From Pseudomonadales bacterium (GTDB lineage Bacteria; Pseudomonadota; Gammaproteobacteria; Pseudomonadales; Pseudohongiellaceae), in assembly GCA_022827425.1 (NCBI GenBank), contig JAJDSZ010000129.1, positions 27,084 through 91,083 of the forward strand: 64,000 nucleotides of DNA, read 5' to 3'. How positions within the stretch are numbered: the first letter of the stretch is position 1; each line of letters starts with the position of its first letter. The notes under the pieces were generated by a model, which was not told the origin of the DNA, made no database searches, and saw nothing but the letters and a program-made list of their open reading frames with translations. Made by a program: the position numbers and the translations under genes. Below, one piece after another: positions 52,513-64,000 of this stretch.

Positions 52513-52626
52513 AGACGGATCGAGCTATTTTCCGCCTTTTCTTGGCTAATCGGTGAACATGCGTATACCATTTGGTGGCACACCCAGATTTTTCGATAAT
52601 CTCGCGGATTGGAGCCGCAACAGGAT

Positions 52627-53790
52627 ATGACAGAGCCTGCCCTCGCAATTTCGATCTCAGACCTGCCCTCACGCCTTGAGGGCATAAAGGATGTCATTCG
52701 CTCCGAGTATCTGGAGGCGCACGGCTATCCTTGGATCGTTGCGTACTCGGGCGGCAAGGATTCTACATTGCTGCTCCAACTGGTCTGGGAGGTCATAGCG
52801 GACCTCCCGCTGAAGCAGCGAAGCCGCCAGATTCTGGTAGTTGGAAACGATACGCTGGTGGAATCACCCCTCGTAATCAATCATCTCCGAAATTCGTTGC
52901 AGCAAATCGATCTTGCGGGAATCCAGTCGGGCCTACCCATCTCAACCGAAGTTACGACGCCATGCATTGATCAGACTTTCTGGGTCAGCGTCATCGGGAG
53001 AGGTTACATACCGCCCACCAGGAATTTTCGCTGGTGTACCGACAGGATGAAGATTTCGCCGACGAACAAGCTGATCGTTCGGCTTACGCAGGAGTTCGGC
53101 GGTGCGATTTTGCTGATCGGCACGAGGCGAGCGGAGTCCGACAATCGCCGGCGTGCGATGAATAATCGAGGCGTTTCTGCCCAGAAATTGAATCCGCAAG
53201 GGTTGATCGAGGGCTGTCAGATGTTCGCGCCGCTGGCTGACTTGGAAGATAACGATGTGTGGATGACGCTCATGCAGCGGAGTCCGCCGTGGGGCGGCAC
53301 CCATCGGCGCTTGATTACCTTGTATCGCAATGCAGGAGGAGGAGAGTGTCCTTTAGTCGTCACGAAGGAGCAGGCGCCTTCCTGCGGTAGCACATCTCCA
53401 CGATTTGGCTGCTGGACCTGCACCGTTGTCCAGAAGGACCGAAGTCTTAAAGGGCTGATAGACTCCGGCCACGGTGAGACGGAAAGACTGGAAGCGCTGT
53501 TCGATTTCAGGGAGTGGCTGCTGGAACTTCGGGAAGACGAGAATAATCGATTACCTGTGCGACGTAATGGAAATGTCGAGCATCGTGAAAACGGGAGTCA
53601 AATCTTGGGACCATTCAAACTCGAGATTCGCAAACTAATTCTCAATAAGTTGCGGGAGCTAGAATCAGAGATAGGTGAACCATTGATTTTGCCTGCAGAA
53701 ATCGATTGTATCGAAGACGTGTGGTGGAGAGACCAAATCAAAGAAGATGCCCGTCAGGCATTGCATCGCAGTCTTGAAGCCGTTGTTTAA
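52627..53790 (+). CDS. DndC/SspD/IbrA-like PAPS-reductase-family sulfurtransferase
   Basis: AYSGGKDSTLLLQLVWE (PP-loop); YIPPTRNFRWCTDRMKISPTNKLI; LIGTRRAESDNRRRAM; CPLVVTKEQAPSCGSTSPRFGCWTCTVVQKDRSLKGLID: characteristic DndC Cys motifs. Confidence 0.88.
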   Translation: MTEPALAISISDLPSRLEGIKDVIRSEYLEAHGYPWIVAYSGGKDSTLLLQLVWEVIADLPLKQRSRQILVVGNDTLVESPLVINHLRNSLQQIDLAGIQSGLPISTEVTTPCIDQTFWVSVIGRGYIPPTRNFRWCTDRMKISPTNKLIVRLTQEFGGAILLIGTRRAESDNRRRAMNNRGVSAQKLNPQGLIEGCQMFAPLADLEDNDVWMTLMQRSPPWGGTHRRLITLYRNAGGGECPLVVTKEQAPSCGSTSPRFGCWTCTVVQKDRSLKGLIDSGHGETERLEALFDFREWLLELREDENNRLPVRRNGNVEHRENGSQILGPFKLEIRKLILNKLRELESEIGEPLILPAEIDCIEDVWWRDQIKEDARQALHRSLEAVV

Positions 53791-53793
53791 TTT

Positions 53794-55581
53794 TTGGATG
53801 ACAAGGATGATTCGTTGAGCGAGACAAAGATCACTTCCGAGGTTTGCCTCGTATCAGAAGTCTTGTGTTCGGGATGCTTTACCGTTCCTTGGCATCAGCG
53901 CTACTATGATTGGAAGGTAGAGCAGGTCGGTGAACTACTCACAGATCTGCACGACGCTGTGGAAGGCGATAAAGCATGCTATTTCGTTGGTTCGATAATG
54001 TTGGTTAGTTCGAGTTTGGCAACTTCCTTGAGGGTCAACGATGGACAGCAACGACTTATTACACTGTCTTTGTTGATCGCAGCCCTTTGTCGCCGTTTTG
54101 AAAAGATGCTGCCTCCAGATAATGCACGTGAGACACGCGGATTGCGTGCCTTGTTCGACGAGCCCGATTACCACATTTTAAAGCTATCTGAAGCCGCCAA
54201 GTACAAACCCAGAATTGAGCCGCCAAGGCGAAACAAGTCCACATATCAGCAGTTGATTCGAGGTCATGACATTGGAACCAATGGAGCTCTCACTTCTGCT
54301 TGGGAAGTCATCGATCTTTTTGTGGGAGCAATGGATCGACGAGCAATCGAGAGTTTTTCAGACTTTGTTATGCAAAAAGTTGAAGTATCGGTGCTCCAGG
54401 TGCCAAGTGATGTAGATGCGAATTCGGTATTCGAGTCTCTAAACGCACGTGGAAAACCTCTGGACGATGTCGACCTGATCCGTAATCGATTGTACTCGTA
54501 TTTCTCAGACCAAGAAGACCCCAATCGAAGGGAAACTATCCATGAAAGACTTGAGTCTCCGGCCGTAGTCTTGGGACCAAGCAATGTACAGGATTATTTT
54601 CGATGCTACCTACAGTGCAGGTATGGGTATCTTCAAAAGAACAGGTTTTATAGAGAGGTCAGACAAAAGATAGAGGGAGCTGCTGAGCAGGATGATCCGC
54701 CTAGCTATGTATACAATCTCATTGACGGTTTGGGTAAGAAAGAAAGCATGCAGTTGTTCCGAACACTAACGTCTTCTAGGCCAGATGTGGCATTGAACAT
54801 AAATCTTCCCAAAATCTCTGGCTACAGAGATATTACTGTATTGCTGAGTGAACTGAAGGATTATAAAGTAACTCAGCCCTTGGTTTTTTCTCTGTTGCAT
54901 CGATTTCTTGAAGAAAAGGACAAGGATATTAAACGCAAGGTTGGCTTAGTGGTTGCGCGTAGTCTAAAAAATCTTACTTCATTTGTGATGAGGACGACGT
55001 TTGTCGCTTCTAAGTTCGAGCCTTCTAAATTCGAGGCGGCGTTTTCGAATTTTGCTATGGATGTCTTCAGGGGAACTGACTTCCAATCGCTCGATATCTA
55101 TGAGGGACTTGCTGGAACGGATGAATATGAAGTGATTGATAACGTGAGATTTATACGTCGCATGACAGATATGGAGATACGCACCAATGCTAAAGCTCTA
55201 CGATTCTTGTTTGGCATAAACTCCAAGCATCAACTTGGTTCTGATGTTTTTAGGCGAGACCACTGTACCGTTGAACATGTATTGCCGCAATCCGATCAAC
55301 ATTGGTCTGATTGGAAGGCATTTTCGGAAGAACAAGCGAAAGAGTGCATCTATCGCACTGGCAACATGGTAATTTTGACAAAAAGGGAAAATCGCTCAAA
55401 CGAAGAATTTAATAAAAGTTTTCTAGCTAAAGCGGATTTTTACAAGGACAGTGCATTAAGTATGCCGAGATTAGTTGCCGAGAATCATGATGAATGGACG
55501 CCCGGGATTGTAGAGAAAAGATCCAAGGCACTTGCAAAGGAGGCGGCATCAGTCTGGCAATTTTCACCAAGCAAAGCGTAG
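53794..55581 (+). CDS. DUF262 + DUF1524 protein (GmrSD/SspE-like putative restriction nuclease)
   Basis: TTG start; CFTVPWHQRYYDWKVEQVGELLTDLHDAVEGDKACYFVGSIMLV...RVNDGQQRLITLSLLIAAL (DGQQR motif); C-terminal DHCTVEHVLPQSDQHW...CIYRTGNMVILTKRENRSNEEFNKSFLAKADFYKDSAL (HNH-like DUF1524). Confidence 0.85.
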   Translation: MDDKDDSLSETKITSEVCLVSEVLCSGCFTVPWHQRYYDWKVEQVGELLTDLHDAVEGDKACYFVGSIMLVSSSLATSLRVNDGQQRLITLSLLIAALCRRFEKMLPPDNARETRGLRALFDEPDYHILKLSEAAKYKPRIEPPRRNKSTYQQLIRGHDIGTNGALTSAWEVIDLFVGAMDRRAIESFSDFVMQKVEVSVLQVPSDVDANSVFESLNARGKPLDDVDLIRNRLYSYFSDQEDPNRRETIHERLESPAVVLGPSNVQDYFRCYLQCRYGYLQKNRFYREVRQKIEGAAEQDDPPSYVYNLIDGLGKKESMQLFRTLTSSRPDVALNINLPKISGYRDITVLLSELKDYKVTQPLVFSLLHRFLEEKDKDIKRKVGLVVARSLKNLTSFVMRTTFVASKFEPSKFEAAFSNFAMDVFRGTDFQSLDIYEGLAGTDEYEVIDNVRFIRRMTDMEIRTNAKALRFLFGINSKHQLGSDVFRRDHCTVEHVLPQSDQHWSDWKAFSEEQAKECIYRTGNMVILTKRENRSNEEFNKSFLAKADFYKDSALSMPRLVAENHDEWTPGIVEKRSKALAKEAASVWQFSPSKA

Positions 55582-55602
55582 CTTCCTATAGAGCCCGGTC
55601 GG

Positions 55603-56994
55603 ATGAACGAAACATTGGAACTTCGACACCAGGCTGAGGACATGCTCGGTGTCCCGAGTAGATTGCATGATTACCAATGGGAGGGTGTGTCCTTCCTCTT
55701 TCGCTCAAACGCAGCGCTACTTGCTGACGAAATGGGATTGGGCAAGACGGTCCAAGCCTCAGTCGCCTTGGCCCTCTTGCTGAACGCGAAGAATGATATC
55801 AGGCGCTCACTCATCGTTGCCCCTGCATCGCTGATTACCAACTGGATGTCGGAACTGGATATTTGGGCACCATCCCTTGCGGTTCGACGCCTGCAAGGAG
55901 ATATTCGTGACCGTGAAGCTCTGTACATGCTTCCTGTTCCAGTGTTGGTTGGCTCCTACGAACAAATCAGGCAAGATGGTCTTGATCGGATTCCAGCCGA
56001 CACGTTCGATATAGTTATTCTTGACGAAGCCCAGCGCATAAAGAACAAGTACTCCCGGACATCATTGGCCTGCCGTTTACTCCCGCGAAAGCACTCTTGG
56101 GCGCTATCCGCCACTCCGCTCGAGAACGATCCGGATGATGTGGCCTCAATTCTTGGATTTTTAAACCCATCCTTACCAACGGACCTCTCAAATACGAAAC
56201 TTTCGTCAACGCTAAGTTCAATGATGCTGCGTAGAAGGAAACAGGAGGTAAGGGGGGAACTTCCTCCAGTCATCATTCAGGACATGAAGTTGGAATTGCT
56301 ATCTCCACAGAGAGTTGCCTATGATCAATTGTGGGTGGAGCGGGAGAATGCCGCCAGGGCAGACGCCGAGAGTTCTGCGGCTGTATTGCTGGGGCTAATA
56401 ACTCGCCTTAAGATTGCTTGCAATTTTGACCCTGATAGCAATACGTCTTCCAAGCTGGACGCATTGAAGGAGGTTTGTGAAGGTATGGGGTCAAACGCTC
56501 GCGTACTGGTTTTCTCGCAGTTCGTCGAGACCTTGAAATGGCTGTCTGCGCGGATTAGCATTCCTGGTGATTTCATCACGGGCTCAATGTCGATCGAAGA
56601 GCGGCAGAAAGCCATAGAGAGGTTCAAAACTGGCAGGTCGCCCCGAATCCTATTCATCTCATTGAGGGCCGGCGGCGTGGGATTGAATCTGGGAGAGGCG
56701 TCACATGTTGTAATGTTTGACAGGTGGTGGAACCCGGCTGTCGAGATGCAAGCGATCTACCGTGCACATAGGTTTGATCGGGAAGAGCCGCTACACGTTG
56801 TCCGATTTTTGGTGGTGGATACGATAGAAGATCGTATTGCCAGCATCTTGGACAGCAAAGAGGAAATGTTCAGCGATATTGTTGAATCCGCCGAAACCGC
56901 CTCTCGCGGTTTCTCTATACAGGAGTTGATGCATATCCTCGAACTCTCTGGAAGCGACAAGATTTCAACTACAGAAAGGCAGGAGGAAAATTAA
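55603..56994 (+). CDS. Compact SNF2-family helicase/translocase
   Basis: LHDYQWEGVSFLFRSNAALLADEMGLGKTVQASVALALLL; FDIVILDEAQRIKN; WALSATPLEND; FISLRAGGVGLNLGEASHVVMFDRWWNPAVEMQAIYRAHRFDREEPLHVVRFLVVDTIEDRI. Confidence 0.93.
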   Translation: MNETLELRHQAEDMLGVPSRLHDYQWEGVSFLFRSNAALLADEMGLGKTVQASVALALLLNAKNDIRRSLIVAPASLITNWMSELDIWAPSLAVRRLQGDIRDREALYMLPVPVLVGSYEQIRQDGLDRIPADTFDIVILDEAQRIKNKYSRTSLACRLLPRKHSWALSATPLENDPDDVASILGFLNPSLPTDLSNTKLSSTLSSMMLRRRKQEVRGELPPVIIQDMKLELLSPQRVAYDQLWVERENAARADAESSAAVLLGLITRLKIACNFDPDSNTSSKLDALKEVCEGMGSNARVLVFSQFVETLKWLSARISIPGDFITGSMSIEERQKAIERFKTGRSPRILFISLRAGGVGLNLGEASHVVMFDRWWNPAVEMQAIYRAHRFDREEPLHVVRFLVVDTIEDRIASILDSKEEMFSDIVESAETASRGFSIQELMHILELSGSDKISTTERQEEN

Positions 56995-56998
56995 GGAA

Positions 56999-57826
56999 AT
57001 GGCAAAAATCGTGGAGTATCGAGAAATTCCCTTGGACGATTTAACGATTAGCAAGGGACAAGTACGGACACAAAACACTGGGCAAGAGATCGACGAGTTA
57101 GCTAGAAGCATTGAAACTCAGGGTCTTTTGCAACCCATTGTTGTTTGCCAAGCTCGGGAGGAAGGCAAGTGGGAGATTTTAACTGGGCAAAGACGCTTTC
57201 TGGCTCATAAGCACTTAAGAAAGGAAAGAATTTCAGCTGCTGTGCTGGATGAGCGGGTCGATGAAGGGCAAGCGAAAGCAATCTCCATTACGGAAAACTT
57301 GATTCGGCGGCAGCTTACTGGGAAAGAGCTGAAGGATGGGGTTCTGTTTCTGTACAACATCTATGGGACTGTCAAAGAGGTAGCAGAAGCCACAGGTCTG
57401 CCTAGAAATAAAATCTCTGAGTACATTAAGTACCCAAGGCTGCTCAAGGAACTAAAAGGCCTGGTTGATGATGGTGTCGTCGATGTTAATGTGGCGGTAA
57501 AGGCACAAGATGCAGCAAGCGATGACGAAGGAGTGGCTGATCCGGAGGTAGCCGTCCAGTTAGCCAAGGAGATGGCTCCGATGACCGGGGTTCAGCGGAA
57601 AAAGGTACATAAGGAAATCAAAGACCACCCCGAACGCAACATGGACGATGTAATTGAGCGAGCAAAAACAGGATCTAAGGTAGTGCAGGTCATCGCAACC
57701 GTATCTAATGACGTTCATGCAGCGATTCAGCAAGTAGCCAAGGAAGAAGGAGAAAACCAAGACGACACGGTGGCTCTTCTTATCGAAGAGGCTCTAATTG
57801 ATCGTGGAGCCTTGGAAGGAAGCTAG
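56999..57826 (+). CDS. ParB/Srx-fold (ParB-like nuclease domain + HTH) protein
   Basis: EYREIPLDDLTISKGQVRTQNTGQEIDELARSIETQGLLQPIVVCQAREEGKWEILTGQRRFLAHKHL...AKAISITENLIRRQLTGKELKDGVLFLYNIYGTVKEVAEATGLPRNKISEYI. Confidence 0.85.
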   Translation: MAKIVEYREIPLDDLTISKGQVRTQNTGQEIDELARSIETQGLLQPIVVCQAREEGKWEILTGQRRFLAHKHLRKERISAAVLDERVDEGQAKAISITENLIRRQLTGKELKDGVLFLYNIYGTVKEVAEATGLPRNKISEYIKYPRLLKELKGLVDDGVVDVNVAVKAQDAASDDEGVADPEVAVQLAKEMAPMTGVQRKKVHKEIKDHPERNMDDVIERAKTGSKVVQVIATVSNDVHAAIQQVAKEEGENQDDTVALLIEEALIDRGALEGS

Positions 57827-57829
57827 ATC

Positions 57830-58552
57830 ATGCTTGCTGGGCTAAACGCATTGGAGCTTGGCCGTCTTCGTATGTCTCTGGGATATGGGACACACAAGAA
57901 AGGTCGACCTCTGTCTCCGATTGAGGTAGGAGAACTTCTGAGAAAGGCTCGCTTGGAAGGTATGTCACTTCAAGACTGTGCTAAAGCAGTCCAACTCGAT
58001 GGTACAGGACATATAGGGAGGTTCTTGACAATCCTCGAACTTCCGGAAGATTTGCAGCATCTGATCGGATGGGGCGCGGAAAAGAATTTTATTGGATTTA
58101 CCGCCGCATTCGAATTAACAAACCTAGGTAATGCTGAAGAGCAGCGAGTTGTAGCTGGCACTATTTTGTCCAATGGACTAACCAGTAAGGAAATACGACA
58201 GATAGCGCAACTCCGCAATCGATCTGATAAGAATATTGGTCAATGCATTAAAGAAATACTTGGCATGCGCCAACAAGTTACAAAGCGATTCGTATTTGTT
58301 GGTTCGATGTCATTGGAAACCGAATCGAATCTGGCAAAAAAGACTCAATCTGCCAGAGATCTAATTTTGGCTTCCGCAATAGGAGGTCTTGGAATCAGAA
58401 GCGCGACCGGTCGTCTCGGCCCCAAGCTGTTCACGCTTGTGGGTAACGAGGACTTTAATGCCTCAATGCAAGAAATTGGTAAAGAGAACATAGAGGCAAG
58501 GATCAGAGCGCTCGTATCAAAGGCACTGGAGAATGGTTTGCCCGAGAGTTGA
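57830..58552 (+). CDS. ParB-HTH-like DNA-binding protein lacking an N-terminal ParB nuclease domain
   Basis: SPIEVGELLRKARLEGMSLQDCAKAVQLDGTGHIGRFLTILELPEDLQHLIGWGAEKNFIGFTAAFELTNLGNAEEQRVVAGTILSNGLTSKEIRQIAQL resembles the ParB central HTH. Confidence 0.5.
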   Translation: MLAGLNALELGRLRMSLGYGTHKKGRPLSPIEVGELLRKARLEGMSLQDCAKAVQLDGTGHIGRFLTILELPEDLQHLIGWGAEKNFIGFTAAFELTNLGNAEEQRVVAGTILSNGLTSKEIRQIAQLRNRSDKNIGQCIKEILGMRQQVTKRFVFVGSMSLETESNLAKKTQSARDLILASAIGGLGIRSATGRLGPKLFTLVGNEDFNASMQEIGKENIEARIRALVSKALENGLPES

Positions 58553-59555
58553 TGTATTCAACAATGGTGCAGTGCGCCTTGGTTCTAATCTGGTCTGCGA
58601 TGGTTACGCGGAAGGATTCGATTTTCGTGTTCAAACTCATATTCATGATGATCACATGAGTGACTTTAACAAAAGTAAAGGATTGCAGGACATTCTTATG
58701 AGCAGGGAAACCAAGTCACTACTAATCTCGGAATCAAATCCGGACCTTGAATATCGAGACAATGTTATTGCATTAAGGTGGGGAGACGAGATAGCGCTTG
58801 AAGACGGAACCAAGGTCACACTGTTTCGGTCGGGTCATATGCTTGGATCAGCGCAGATGTTAGTTGAACATTCAGATGGAATTCGTAGCGGGTATTCTGG
58901 CGATTTCGCATGGCCAATTGAGGAAATAATCCAAGTTGATGAGTTGGTTATTGATAGCACTTATGGTAATCCAGCGAGCATTAGAAAATACTCGCAAGGC
59001 GAAGCTGAAAGTCGCTTAGTCGAAATTGTTTCTCAACGATTACGTCATGGCTCTGTTCATGTAAACGCCTATAGAGGAACAATTGAGCGAGTCTTGCATG
59101 TGCTTTCGAGTAATGTAAATGTTCCGATTCTGGGTAGTAAGAGGTTAAGTCAAGAAGTATCAGTATATCAGGAGAATGGGTTTGGAGTTGGCACTATCAC
59201 GCGAATTGACTCGGAGGAAGGGCGACTTGCCCTGCAGAATGGCTCATACATACGCCTGTACGCGAAAGGTGATGGTTTTCAAAACGAACTTGTTGAAGAA
59301 ACGAGCATATCATGTAGCGCGTTTATGACTCGACTAGACGATCCAGTCGTGGAATTTTCAGAACGAGCCTATAGAGTAGCACTTTCGAATCATGCGGATT
59401 TCGAGGGCACCATTGAATACATAAGAGCAACCGGCGCAGTAAAAGTAATTACCGATAACACAAGAAGCCATGGAGTTGACTTGGCTATTGCCATTAACAG
59501 CAGTATTAATGGTGTTTACGCTGAGCCTTCATCGAATCTTCCGTATATCACATAG
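58533..59555 (+). CDS. Metallo-beta-lactamase-fold nuclease, beta-CASP/exonuclease-like
   Basis: FRVQTHIHDDHMSDF (HxHxDH); FRSGHMLGSAQMLVEHSDGIRSGYSGDF; LVIDSTYGNP; ALSNHADFEGTIEYIRATGAVKVITDNTRSHG. Confidence 0.8.
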   Translation: MVCPRVDVFNNGAVRLGSNLVCDGYAEGFDFRVQTHIHDDHMSDFNKSKGLQDILMSRETKSLLISESNPDLEYRDNVIALRWGDEIALEDGTKVTLFRSGHMLGSAQMLVEHSDGIRSGYSGDFAWPIEEIIQVDELVIDSTYGNPASIRKYSQGEAESRLVEIVSQRLRHGSVHVNAYRGTIERVLHVLSSNVNVPILGSKRLSQEVSVYQENGFGVGTITRIDSEEGRLALQNGSYIRLYAKGDGFQNELVEETSISCSAFMTRLDDPVVEFSERAYRVALSNHADFEGTIEYIRATGAVKVITDNTRSHGVDLAIAINSSINGVYAEPSSNLPYIT

Positions 59556-59563
59556 AGGAAACA

Positions 59564-59914
59564 ATGGAAAATTATTGGAATGCGATATTGTTCTGTATAC
59601 TTGTGATAGCTCTATTCTTTACAGTGCGAGGGAACATAAAATTTGACCTTAATGAGTATTTAAAAGATCGCCGAAAAAACAAGAAGCAGCGTGTTCGAAC
59701 GCTTTGCCCTCACATGGATGTAACAAGGGATGAGAAGGGGTCATTACAGTTTCGTAGTTCTTACATTCCAAATCTCGGCGGGATTGGTTGGACATGCCGA
59801 ACTTGTGGGTCAGAAACTACTGACGAGTTTTACATAAAGGAGACCTTGAAGTATTGGGTAAACAATCCAAAAGAGTACGAAAAGCGCAGAAAGAAGATGA
59901 TAAAATTAGCATGA
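59564..59914 (+). CDS. Small membrane-anchored zinc-ribbon-like protein
   Basis: TM NAILFCILVIALFFTV; candidate metal ligands CPHMD and CRTCGSE. Confidence 0.5.
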   Translation: MENYWNAILFCILVIALFFTVRGNIKFDLNEYLKDRRKNKKQRVRTLCPHMDVTRDEKGSLQFRSSYIPNLGGIGWTCRTCGSETTDEFYIKETLKYWVNNPKEYEKRRKKMIKLA

Positions 59915-60178: not shown

Positions 60179-61243
60179 TCACCGCTTGGCGGGCGCCAGC
60201 GGGAAGCACCGCAGACCTGCGTAGGCTTTCGCCCGCAAGCGCTCGGCGTTCACCACGATCTTGATGTGATTGATACCCATGCGCAGCTCGTAGGTTCCGT
60301 TCGCCCCGTAGAGGATGCACTGCTTCGGCCAGGACAGAAGCCCGTCGGCTTTCGTCTGCGAGCACAATCCCATTTCGACCAGCCGATTTATCAGGCCGCG
60401 CCAATGGGAGCTTCTTGTCGTGCGCCAGGCCGAGAGCAGGCCTCGAAAATCCCGCTCGCCGGCGTCATTCGGGTAGATTTCAAAACCCAGTCGCGGCAGG
60501 GCGCCTTCAGGGACAACATCGAACGCCATCATGAAGCGGTTGGAGACATCGTGGAGTTCCGACAGGACGTCCAGAACCGTGGGGATCGAACCCGGCCACC
60601 GGAGCCGATCGAGAAATGGCCCCGCCTGAGCTGCCGCAACCTCGGCGACAACCAGCCTGACGGATCGCGGCGCGCGCTCGGGAAAGGCGGCGGCGAACGC
60701 GACTACCGCGCCGGAGGGCAGCACGGCAAATGCGCGGGACAATGTGCGGGTCAGGGCGCACCGTTCCCGTCGCGAGTCACTCCGGCCAAGGACATGACCG
60801 AGCGTGGCGGCGAGGTGGGCCGGTTCGAATGTCGCCCCGTCCGGAGCTAAAGATGCGTCCGATCGCAAATTGATCGCCGGAGCCGCTTTCCGCTCCTCGG
60901 GGATGTCAATGAGATCGTATTCGAGCATCAGCCATCGGTACGATTCCGGCTTGCTGGCCAGCCAGGCGTCGAGTGAGGGTTTCAGGGATGTTGCCGCAGC
61001 CTCGTCCGCGCCCGCCAGGTAGCGGTGCGGGACCTGTGAAGAGGTCACGGTGAGCGAGAAGTCTGCAGCCGGTTCCGGGTCGTCGAGTTGCACTTCGAAG
61101 ATGCACAGGTTCGCCGCGACGGCTGCGGGAAAATCTCCGACCCGCCGCAGCAACCGGTCTCGACCCCGTCCAGCGAGCAGGGATTCGGGAATCCGTGGCT
61201 GCAATGCCTCGAGCAGGTCCCGAAGTTGCGTCATTGCGCTCAT
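60179..61243 (-). CDS. Hypothetical protein of the halogenase/RiPP cluster
   Basis: MSAMTQLRDLLEALQPRIPESLLAGRGRDRLLRRVGDFPAAVAANLCIFEVQLDDPEPAADFSLTVTSS... ~354 codons, minus strand, co-directional with the halogenase. Confidence 0.65.
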   Translation of the reverse strand: MSAMTQLRDLLEALQPRIPESLLAGRGRDRLLRRVGDFPAAVAANLCIFEVQLDDPEPAADFSLTVTSSQVPHRYLAGADEAAATSLKPSLDAWLASKPESYRWLMLEYDLIDIPEERKAAPAINLRSDASLAPDGATFEPAHLAATLGHVLGRSDSRRERCALTRTLSRAFAVLPSGAVVAFAAAFPERAPRSVRLVVAEVAAAQAGPFLDRLRWPGSIPTVLDVLSELHDVSNRFMMAFDVVPEGALPRLGFEIYPNDAGERDFRGLLSAWRTTRSSHWRGLINRLVEMGLCSQTKADGLLSWPKQCILYGANGTYELRMGINHIKIVVNAERLRAKAYAGLRCFPLAPAKR

Positions 61244-61325
61244 GCCTTTCTCACTCGGTGATCGCGCCAGGGGACAATCCCGTAGCGGGGCCCGTTGCCC
61301 CATGTCGATATCGGGAGGCGTGGCA

Positions 61326-62816
61326 TCAGGCGGGTGGCGCCTTGCAGTAATCGTCAATGAACTGCTGATGGCCGGGAAGCTGATCGACCCGCTCTTCGAC
61401 CTGGCGGTGGATGTCGGCCAGATATTTTCCGAGCTCGTCCTTGCCCATGGCATTAACGATAGGGTGATACTGTTCCGGAATCAGGCCCTGCCCGAGCATG
61501 ACCTGCACCCAAAAATTCGTGGCGAACAGTTCCCCCGGGTTCCAGGCAATCCGGCCAGTTTGTCGAAACAACTCGATTCGGTGCGTCAGGGAGTCGGGAA
61601 TGTCCATGGTCCGGCACTGTCGCCAGAAAGGCGTATCCGACCGACCGTTCACATGGTAATGGAAGATGATAAAGTCGCGGATATTGTCAATCTCGTCCTG
61701 CGTCTTGGCGTTGAATTCGGCAATGGCGGGTTCGCGGACCCCCCTTTCGGGAAACAACTCGACCAGGCGGGTGACGCCACGCTGAATGAGATGGATGCTG
61801 GTCGATTCCAGCGGTTCCAGAAAGCCTGACGCCAGCCCCAGGGCAACGCAGTTCTTGTGCCAATACTTCCGCCTCTGGCCGGCCCTGAAACGGATCAGCC
61901 GGGGCTCGGCGAGCACGGCGCCCTGGACATTATCGAGCAGCCGCGCCCGGGCCTCGTCGTCGGACCAGTGCCGGGAACTGAATACCATGCCGTTGCCGAC
62001 GCGGTGCTGCAACGGAATGCGCCACTGCCACCCTGCTTCATGGGCTGTCGAGCGTGTGTACGGGGAGGGAGGGGCGGTAATTGCGGTTGGTACGGCGATT
62101 GCGCTGTCACAATGCAGCCAGTCGCCATAGCCGTCGAAACCGACATTCAGGGCCTGCCCGATCAGGAGCCCGCGAAAGCCGGTGCAATCTATAAAGAAGT
62201 CGCCCGTGACCAGTTGCCCTGACTGCAGGCGGAGGCCGGTGATGAACCCGCTGGCCGGATCCTGTTCCACCTGTTCGATTCTTCCTTCATGGCGAATGAC
62301 GCCGGACTCCTCGGCAATCCCTCGCAGGAATTGTCCGTAGAGTCCGGCGTCGATGTGGTAGGCGTAGTTCAGGACGGTGTGCAGGCCGATGGCAAACCGG
62401 TTGCGTAAAGCCGCGGACGTTTCCAGACAGTATTCTCCGTAGCTCCGCGCCAGCCCCAGGCGGCGCCCCCTCAGCCAGTAATTCTGAAAACCCACCGCCC
62501 AGCGTTCCCTTCCGGCCCAGCCAAAGGAACCGAAGTAGTTCTCGCCCAGGTTCCGCCAGTTCTCGAAGAAAATTCCAAGCTTGAAAGTACCCTGAACGGC
62601 GCGGAGGAACTCGGGTTCACTCACGTTCATGTATTTGTGGAAAAGATGCAGCGGCGGGATCGTCGCTTCGCCCACGCCGACAGTTCCGATCTCATCGGAT
62701 TCCACGAGGGCAATGTCCAGAATCTCGCCGAAATGGCGTGCGAACATTGCCGCGGCCATCCATCCCGCCGTGCCGCCACCGGCGATCACGAGTTTCCTGA
62801 TGCGCCCGTTATGCAT
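61326..62816 (-). CDS. Flavin-dependent tryptophan halogenase family protein
   Basis: KLVIAGGGTAGWMAAAMFARHFG; GTVGVGEATIPPLHLFHKYM; GTFKLGIFFENW (region of the catalytic Lys); HEAGWQWRIPLQHR (WxWxIP motif); GFLEPLESTSIHLIQ (region of the catalytic Glu). Confidence 0.93.
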   Translation of the reverse strand: MHNGRIRKLVIAGGGTAGWMAAAMFARHFGEILDIALVESDEIGTVGVGEATIPPLHLFHKYMNVSEPEFLRAVQGTFKLGIFFENWRNLGENYFGSFGWAGRERWAVGFQNYWLRGRRLGLARSYGEYCLETSAALRNRFAIGLHTVLNYAYHIDAGLYGQFLRGIAEESGVIRHEGRIEQVEQDPASGFITGLRLQSGQLVTGDFFIDCTGFRGLLIGQALNVGFDGYGDWLHCDSAIAVPTAITAPPSPYTRSTAHEAGWQWRIPLQHRVGNGMVFSSRHWSDDEARARLLDNVQGAVLAEPRLIRFRAGQRRKYWHKNCVALGLASGFLEPLESTSIHLIQRGVTRLVELFPERGVREPAIAEFNAKTQDEIDNIRDFIIFHYHVNGRSDTPFWRQCRTMDIPDSLTHRIELFRQTGRIAWNPGELFATNFWVQVMLGQGLIPEQYHPIVNAMGKDELGKYLADIHRQVEERVDQLPGHQQFIDDYCKAPPA

Positions 62817-62907
62817 GGCCCGCTGCTGGAGGGTTCAGCCTTCCGGCACGCATGTCCCGGGCCTGCCGGCGCGGCGAACCATTACCGTCGGAGACACGAC
62901 ATGAGGC

Positions 62908-63171
62908 TCACCAGGTGTCGATGTCGCCAAAACCGCCGCCGACCACGCCGCCGATTTCCCGGTCCGACAGGTTCCGGCCTTCCGGCGGCAGGACCAGGTG
63001 AAAATCGGTGGCGTTGTCTTGAAGGACACGGACGTTGACGCCATCCGGAACCGAAAGTCCGGTGGCGTCCTTGATGGCTGCCTTCGGATTCTCCAGGAGT
63101 TGGGCGCGGAATGCCGCGTCCTCCTCGGCCTTGGCAAGAAGCTGTTGCTGGATCTGTGATGAGGTGTTCAT
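62908..63171 (-). CDS. NHLP-type (nitrile hydratase-like leader) RiPP precursor peptide
   Basis: 87 aa MNTSSQIQQQLLAKAEEDAAFRAQLLENPKAAIKDATGLSVPDGVNVRVLQDNATDFHLVLPPEGRNLSDREIGGVVGGGFGDIDTW; typical NHLP leader, GG-type processing region, short C-terminal tail with Trp. Confidence 0.88.
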   Translation of the reverse strand: MNTSSQIQQQLLAKAEEDAAFRAQLLENPKAAIKDATGLSVPDGVNVRVLQDNATDFHLVLPPEGRNLSDREIGGVVGGGFGDIDTW

Positions 63172-63254
63172 GTTCGACTGCCTTCTCCGGTGATCGCTGC
63201 TCGGAGCAGCACTGTGACTGCGACGATAACAGATATCCTGACCTCACTCCAATG

Positions 63255-63992
63255 TCATGTGACCTTGATACCCCAGTCGATCATTTTCTCATGACGCCAG
63301 GATGACAGCCTGCCATCCGGATACGATGTCGGAATCTCGGCCTGGAATCTGGACCTCCTTCCCGCGGGGTCGTCTTCGGCAAAGAGGGCAACAACCCGGG
63401 CTTCTACGGAAAATCGCCTTGGCGCGCCGTCCCGGGTCGTCGGATCGTTGAAAGCCGTGTGAAAGGTGACCCGGCATGCCGGATCCTCGATGCGGGAATC
63501 GTACTGCCTGAAGATCAGCGCCTCGCCCGGCTCCATTCCGGGAAAGTAATGCCAGCACTGGGCCGTGTCATGAACGAGACGGTACTGCACCAGGCGGGTG
63601 GCCGGCTCGGTCAGGCGCCGCCCATCTGAGCTGATCATGTCGTCGGCGGAGACGGTCGCATGGTCGCACAGGGCAAGGGGCTTTGACTCGATCGCCCGCA
63701 GGGGATCCGTACTCCGCCAGACGTTGTAAACGCCGAAGTGACGGTCGTCCGGTATGGCAAGCACATCCTCGACATAGGGAGTCATGTCTGCGTGGGCCAT
63801 TTCCGCATAGGCGCCGGCGCCGCCGGGCAAAATCGGCTCACCGACACGAAACTCGTGCTGCATGGTCCGGGCGGAAAGGCATCCAGTCGCATTCATGACC
63901 AGTTCCGCGCAATGGTCGTAGAAGCGGGAAACAACGCTGTCGCGATCGCCGTAATCGATGTCGAGAGGCGCGTGCACAAGCTCGAATCCCAT
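63255..63992 (-). CDS. CmcJ/NvfI-like oxidoreductase (5' end near window edge)
   Basis: FGVYNVWRSTDPLRAIESKPLALCDHATVSADDMISSD...YRLVHDTAQCWHYFPGMEPGEALIFRQYDSRIEDPACRVTFHTAFNDP: NVWRP..PLAxCDxxSV and WYYFPxM..DExLxFxxYDS-type motifs. Confidence 0.75.
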   Translation of the reverse strand: MGFELVHAPLDIDYGDRDSVVSRFYDHCAELVMNATGCLSARTMQHEFRVGEPILPGGAGAYAEMAHADMTPYVEDVLAIPDDRHFGVYNVWRSTDPLRAIESKPLALCDHATVSADDMISSDGRRLTEPATRLVQYRLVHDTAQCWHYFPGMEPGEALIFRQYDSRIEDPACRVTFHTAFNDPTTRDGAPRRFSVEARVVALFAEDDPAGRRSRFQAEIPTSYPDGRLSSWRHEKMIDWGIKVT

Positions 63993-64000
63993 GCGCCTGA

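Follow-up and report, generated by a model that had tools for sequence, protein, structure and literature searches.

SrpI is the precedent for leader-dependent bromination of a C-terminal tryptophan (PMC10286304, PMC10858898). SrpI and MprC both need an L-x4-L motif just before the Gly-Gly site (PMC10858898, PMC12455567), and MprC tolerated valine in place of leucine in this motif (PMC12455567). The flavin-dependent halogenases BrvH and Xcc4156 reject free tryptophan and have an open active site; their natural substrates are unknown, peptide substrates have been proposed, and both enzymes brominate free indoles in vitro (PMC5945002, PMC7336383). A functional precedent for prenylation is MppC, a leader-dependent ABBA geranyltransferase from a halogenated Nif11 lanthipeptide pathway (PMC12715784). 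Here we describe a gene cluster at the right end of a 91,083-base contig (C92; JAJDSZ010000129.1) in a Pseudomonadales genome (GCA_022827425.1; 2.86 Mb, 130 contigs, 94.5% complete). The window, that is, the whole stretch of 64,000 nucleotides that was analysed, ends where the contig stops, exactly at position 64000. Judged by the leader of its precursor, the locus is a biosynthetic cluster for a proteusin, a ribosomally synthesized and post-translationally modified peptide (RiPP) with an NHLP leader, and the contig end truncates it. The reading that we favour, and consider likely, is that the C-terminal tryptophan of the precursor is halogenated under guidance of the leader and that the core is also prenylated and oxidised, before a peptide of 7-8 residues is cleaved off and exported.

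Gene content of the locus

The preliminary description of this DNA had proposed that four co-directional minus-strand genes occupy the last 3.8 kb, in the order CmcJ/NvfI oxidoreductase, NHLP precursor, flavin-dependent halogenase and a protein without assignment. All four genes were confirmed, three of them by family matches, and the features are as follows:

63255..63998, minus strand: CmcJ/NvfI-family oxidoreductase, 5'-truncated (NF041278; H-x-D...H triad; orthologues beside the same genes)
62908..63171, minus strand: NHLP (proteusin) precursor, 87 aa (TIGR03793; tryptophan at the end of all orthologous cores; ribosome-binding-like GGAGAAGG upstream)
62908..62931, minus strand: predicted core FGDIDTW plus stop codon (comparison with orthologous cores)
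61326..62816, minus strand: flavin-dependent halogenase, 496 aa, Xcc4156/BrvH type (PF04820; PDB relatives; motifs; tree)
60179..61243, minus strand: probable ABBA-fold (DMATS-like) peptide prenyltransferase (Foldseek on two models; conserved polar residues; RiPP neighbourhoods)

The gaps between the four genes are 82-91 bases. Their GC content (0.60-0.64) and their GC content at third codon positions (GC3, 0.72-0.74) are uniform and agree with the values elsewhere in the window, whereas the island directly to the left is low in GC. Two of the start sites first assigned had to be changed. The ATG at 63992, taken as the start of the oxidoreductase gene, is internal; as the contig ends inside this gene, approximately 60-90 N-terminal residues are missing when compared to the complete orthologues of 312-338 aa. 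The start of the fourth gene had been placed at 61453, and lies instead at about 61243, where the protein begins MSAMTQL (compare MNAMTQL in orthologues).

The precursor and its C-terminal tryptophan

The precursor matched the TIGR03793 leader_NHLP model at 68.1 bits (cut-off 50.9; E 4.5e-19), as a proteusin leader should, and its leader, about 79-80 aa long, aligned with the nuclear magnetic resonance structure of MprE7 (8TB1; E 2.9e-14). The precursor end is LSDREIGGVVGGGFGDIDTW, where an L-x4-I motif (LSDREI) stands ahead of a Gly-Gly(-Gly) site; the C-terminus itself, VVGGGFGDIDTW, has tryptophan (Trp87) as its last residue. A Gly-Gly-type site followed by a short core is thus present, as VVGGG/FGDIDTW in the window precursor and with AGG in orthologues. 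The position of cleavage inside GGG is ambiguous, and the core is called FGDIDTW, or GFGDIDTW if the cut follows the first two glycines, because the orthologous cores are mostly 7 aa long with the pattern xGDIDTW. This type of core carries no cysteine.

Relatives were sought with the halogenase as query in 85,462 species genomes. Orthologues with 86-93% identity were found in metagenome-assembled genomes (MAGs) labelled Gammaproteobacteria (L011, L015 and L017/L019, the last being one halogenase gene split across two contigs) and in Rhodobacteraceae/Silicimonas (L012, L013, L014 and L016). The genome mining for the precursor-halogenase pair that had been proposed at the outset therefore yielded seven further loci in gamma- and alphaproteobacterial MAGs. 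An NHLP precursor lies immediately upstream of the halogenase in every orthologous locus that reaches far enough, and the two genes are paired in 8/8 loci showing both, the window included. The cores of the seven relatives are IGDIDTW (three times), IGDIHTW, IGDINTW, VSDIDSW and SISDIDTW. While the first core residues and the third-from-last residue vary (consensus [GS]DI[DHN][TS]W), the terminal tryptophan is kept in all eight precursors; its loss from homologous precursors had been named beforehand as an observation that would speak against peptide halogenation. Both a precursor ending in tryptophan and a halogenase gene directly downstream of it, as first described, were seen. From this conservation, Trp87 is the predicted site of halogenation.

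The occurrence of near-identical genes in two proteobacterial classes suggests horizontal transfer, with errors in MAG binning as the alternative. A link to sponges is presumed from the naming of the MAGs and from the srp literature.

The halogenase

The halogenase matched PF04820 at 605 bits (E 9e-182), and its motifs are intact: GGGTAGW at residue 13 (GxGxxG), the catalytic Lys79, WxWxIP at 263, and EPLEST at 334-339 with the catalytic glutamate. Its best solved relatives are Xcc4156 (6y1w, 602 bits) and BrvH (6frl, 479 bits), with MibH far behind (211 bits), and an ungapped alignment shows that the short substrate loop of BrvH and Xcc4156 is shared by the window enzyme. A posterior mean site frequency (PMSF) tree built from 33 sequences places the RiPP-linked halogenases in one clade (100/100), which is sister to a TonB receptor-linked group (99/96) and lies inside the Xcc4156 group (97/94). 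Many changes are specific to the RiPP-linked clade when compared to the TonB-linked group. SrpI falls far outside the Xcc4156 group in this maximum-likelihood tree, on a very long branch.

Halogenases of the SrpI type are found beside precursors with the core LCCCW; that of L076 carries a PQQVS loop 21 residues past the catalytic lysine, matching the spacing published for SrpI (PMC10858898). The window halogenase is only 23-24% identical to these enzymes, and this value, together with the tree position, led us to reject it as an SrpI orthologue. The proposal of a peptidyl tryptophan halogenase thus stands as far as precursor pairing and intact catalytic motifs are concerned, although the enzyme is of the Xcc4156/BrvH type and not of the SrpI type cited as its precedent. 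Separate recruitment of the two types is favoured by identity and tree but is not proven: a constraint holding the window and SrpI groups together was not rejected by the approximately unbiased (AU) test (p = 0.186). By analogy with the bromide preference of the Xcc4156/BrvH group, bromination is likelier than chlorination.

The nearest relative of the halogenase within the genome (66% identity) is encoded on contig C127, in a block of TonB receptor, halogenase, SapC, cupin and a further halogenase (L009 2-7229). The second halogenase of this block occurs in the same 6/37 congeneric genomes as RiPP-type NHLP precursors, a co-occurrence that may stem from shared ancestry. In 36 congeneric genomes, no orthologue of the window halogenase was found, only paralogues linked to TonB receptor, SapC and cupin genes (65-66%) and more distant halogenases.

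The oxidoreductase and the exporter

The CmcJ/NvfI oxidoreductase matched NF041278 at 138 bits (cut-off 80; E 4e-40), and the H-x-D...H triad (H144, D146 and H255 in L019 numbering) is invariant in five orthologues or paralogues. In L011, L015 and L019, its orthologues (78-93% identity) have the same neighbouring genes. The CmcJ/NvfI family includes Fe(II)/2-oxoglutarate enzymes, and the window enzyme is presumably of this kind.

The fullest gene order is that of L019, where exporter genes ABC1 and ABC2, the oxidoreductase, precursor and halogenase form one run. The fourth gene is downstream of the halogenase in L011-L015 and, in L019, on the far side of the exporter genes. In L011, the window-type cluster is fused to a sister cluster consisting of a precursor with the core FAPTNDSY, an exporter pair, a paralogue of the fourth gene, a methyltransferase and a CmcJ paralogue. 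In the window's own genome, this sister cluster is on contig C22; its precursor core is WAPTNDSY, and its exporter matches are TIGR03796, above the cut-off, and TIGR03797, which falls somewhat short of its cut-off. Both precursor types share a [DHN]-[TS]-[WY] C-terminus, and the halogenase occurs only with the tryptophan type; that the oxygenase acts on the Asp/Thr region common to both is a guess. A C39-peptidase ATP-binding cassette (ABC) exporter, expected beyond the window's edge, was found in L019, L011 and the C22 sister cluster, but the contig itself ends at 64000. As only two NHLM exporters were found in the genome (C22 and C9), and no third, the window cluster either uses the C22 exporter or has its own in the missing sequence. 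Beside the sister cluster, at L010 16701-17276, a 191-aa protein gave a weak match to 2-oxoglutarate-Fe(II) oxygenases.

The fourth protein

The first description of this protein as one without assignment holds for the databases: no Pfam or NCBIfam match was over the cut-off, the sole match being PF19622, below it. Two Foldseek searches now indicate that it is probably an ABBA-fold prenyltransferase. AlphaFold models of the protein and of a paralogue both gave the indole prenyltransferase IptA as the top match (Foldseek probabilities 0.97 and 0.92), although the models are of low confidence, and most of the leading matches were ABBA prenyltransferases as well (PriB, AmbP1, CloQ and NphB; 6-DMATS, DMATS1, FgaPT2 and CdpNPT). 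Residues E47, R187, R193, K325, K336 and Y338 are kept in nearly all 17 members of the family, and the divergent paralogue L074 has lost most of them jointly, as would be expected for active-site residues. When 399 genomes from the phylum were scanned for PF11991 (DMATS), there were zero matches, but this was uninformative, as the controls were silent too.

The protein is a member of a so far undescribed family whose genes neighbour those of NHLP and Nif11 precursors. Paralogues occur at all three NHLP loci of the genome: on C22 (47% identity) and on C9 (30%; core LSCCM, beside YcaO) in addition to the window. The family was present in 2/399 genomes of the phylum sample, one being the window's own, and in 9/397 genomes of one family, where the neighbours are YcaO and NHLP precursors (core LCCCW or RCCCCC) in some cases and LanM with a Nif11-leader precursor in others. 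The homologue at L055 3309-11724 has LanM, a JmjC-type cupin, a Nif11-leader precursor and a TupA-like ATP-grasp protein as neighbours, and this locus is a candidate for a cluster that makes a prenylated lanthipeptide.

Proposed pathway and alternative explanations

Sequence comparison shows the genes, their intact motifs, the precursor-halogenase pairing, the conserved tryptophan, the exporter in sister and relative loci, and the ancestry of the halogenase; we infer the chemical steps, their order, the identity of the halide, and the prenyl donor and acceptor. In the proposed pathway: the leader of the 87-aa precursor would dock the tailoring enzymes, plausibly via the L-x4-I helix as in SrpE and MprE; the halogenase, guided by the leader, would halogenate the C-terminal tryptophan; the prenyltransferase-like protein would attach an isoprenoid to the core, with the tryptophan indole or the conserved Asp-x-Thr part as possible acceptor; the CmcJ/NvfI oxygenase would oxidise the core; and an NHLM C39-peptidase ABC exporter would cut after Gly-Gly and export the 7-8-residue peptide. 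With an ABBA prenyltransferase as the probable identity of the fourth protein, both prenylation and halogenation of the product are likely.

Several observations weigh against this pathway. Because the identity to SrpI is so low, leader-guided action cannot be transferred from SrpI by homology. In window-type loci, no ring-forming enzyme such as YcaO or LanM was seen, whereas one is present in each of the halogenase clusters srp and mpp. For the fourth protein, profile searches with alignments of 9, 8 and 17 members against Pfam, NCBIfam and the PDB gave nothing credible, and no known prenyltransferase family matched it by sequence profile. Its models are weak (mean predicted local distance difference test, pLDDT, of 54, and 44 for the 46%-identical paralogue), with template modelling (TM) scores of about 0.3. 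Some family members lie beside cores with neither tryptophan nor tyrosine (LSCCM and RCCCCC), so the prenyl acceptor need not be tryptophan. The missing sequence match and the weak models would also fit a non-enzymatic protein, one that binds the leader or acts as a chaperone, with an ABBA-like or another fold. We regard this as unlikely, if a serious contender, because polar residues of the prenyltransferase type (E, R, R, K and K-x-Y) are kept almost throughout the family and, for the most part, jointly lost in L074, and because ABBA enzymes ranked first for both models.

Other explanations concern what the halogenase does. Its substrate might be a small molecule, either indole in free or derivatised form or whatever its TonB receptor-linked cousins act on, with the adjacent precursor being incidental. 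The closest relatives, linked to TonB receptor, SapC and cupin genes, have no precursor nearby, and the activity of BrvH and Xcc4156 on free indoles (PMC5945002, PMC7336383) points the same way. However, the eight precursor-halogenase pairs span two bacterial classes with an invariant C-terminal tryptophan, and these halogenases form a single fully supported clade found only at precursor loci and set apart by its many specific changes, making a small-molecule substrate improbable. Alternatively, the tryptophan could be conserved for prenylation by the fourth protein, with the halogenase modifying another residue or another precursor. Among characterised ABBA enzymes, those closest in fold prenylate indoles; MppC geranylates a tryptophan (PMC12715784); and MppE has two tryptophans, one brominated and one prenylated, while the window core has a single one (PMC11791876, PMC12715784). 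As the fourth-protein family also serves cores lacking tryptophan (FAPTNDSY, LSCCM and RCCCCC), the second L011 precursor lacks it, and the halogenase tracks only cores that have it, we give this explanation rather little credence. A common origin of SrpI and the window halogenase in a single ancestral enzyme acting on peptides, which would make the cluster an srp cluster minus YcaO, is not rejected by the AU test and fits the pairing of both enzymes with Trp-ending NHLP precursors and the same fourth-protein family. It appears still more doubtful, given the identity of 23-24% to SrpI-type enzymes versus 66% to paralogues outside RiPP loci, and the placement of the window clade inside the Xcc4156 group with SrpI far outside.

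Returning to leader-guided halogenation of the C-terminal tryptophan, since this clade of the Xcc4156/BrvH group pairs with precursors, the window cluster offers the natural case that the suggestion of peptide substrates has needed. It would give a concrete candidate substrate to a large group of halogenases for which peptides have so far been guessed from an open active site, and, if true, would represent a second kind of leader-guided halogenase specific for a C-terminal tryptophan. The seven-residue, azoline-free core should be simpler to make than SrpE, which would be useful for site-specific bromination and cross-coupling. The analysis also names a probable prenyltransferase family that databases leave blank in proteusin, srp-type and Nif11-lanthipeptide clusters, and predicts that srp products may be prenylated too. 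As for the broadest claim, namely that a second, independently recruited lineage of the Xcc4156/BrvH type performs this reaction in sponge-type proteusins, and that an unrecognised family of ABBA peptide prenyltransferases is standard in proteusin and srp clusters, we see the chances as evenly balanced. In its text, a survey of RiPP clusters from sponges (PMC9426513) names halogenases as well as NHLP and srp-like clusters, but does not describe the combination seen here.

Other loci

The third proteusin locus of the genome (L030 3704-17238, contig C9) carries YcaO (SagD type), the core LSCCM, two methyltransferases, NHLM exporters, and a fatty-acid desaturase-like protein with a GlnE-like piece. 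Within the window, positions 52609-59914 on the plus strand form the low-GC island (0.39-0.51 versus about 0.62), which encodes a DndC-like phosphoadenosine phosphosulfate (PAPS) reductase, GmrSD/HEC-06, an SNF2 helicase close to DpdE/ZorD, ParB-like proteins and two unassigned proteins; it looks like a defence or DNA-modification island.

Comparison with known systems

The DMATS-type ABBA prenyltransferases (IptA, PriB and FgaPT2) are the best fold matches to the fourth protein and share with it a length of about 350 aa and conserved Glu and K-x-Y-type residues, although sequence homology went undetected by profile search. With MibH of the NAI-107 pathway, the locus has in common (as a prediction) peptidyl tryptophan halogenation in a RiPP pathway; MibH, however, acts on a lanthipeptide after leader removal, and its score to the window enzyme is the lowest of the three given above. 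Xcc4156 and BrvH show the highest similarity, the same short loop and the same tree group, but have no known link to precursor peptides, whereas the window clade is NHLP-linked in every locus seen.

The mpp cluster of Moorena producens (MppI brominase, MppC geranyltransferase and MppM LanM) likewise combines a tryptophan halogenase, an ABBA prenyltransferase (probable in the window) and an oxygenase with a structured long-leader precursor (PMC11791876, PMC12715784). It differs in having a Nif11 leader, a lanthionine macrocycle and an SrpI-like halogenase, where the window has an NHLP leader, no LanM and a halogenase of another group.

Membership in the srp type was rejected: at the window locus, cut as it is by the contig end, neither YcaO, nor a cysteine core, nor SrpI orthology was found, and the genome's sole YcaO gene belongs to another locus, on C9. 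Srp-type clusters with YcaO and an NHLP precursor (core LCCCW) were found in three genomes (L075, L076 and L077); in these loci (L075 17990-19001, L076 16942-18243 and L077 3733-5142) an NHLP leader domain is also fused to a C-terminal region of at least about 300 aa with weak squalene-hopene-cyclase similarity. Compared to srp, window-type clusters lack YcaO, have a cysteine-free core (FGDIDTW in the window) in place of LCCCW, use a halogenase of another group and carry the CmcJ/NvfI oxygenase instead. They nevertheless share with srp (precursor SrpE; SrpI, the leader-dependent C-terminal Trp-6 brominase) an NHLP leader with an L-x4-L-like motif, a Gly-Gly site, a short Trp-ending core, an adjacent halogenase and, in L011 and L019, an NHLM exporter, and the fourth-protein family is present in all three srp-type loci. 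By analogy, we infer that the window cluster works like SrpE and SrpI, its leader guiding modification of the C-terminal tryptophan.

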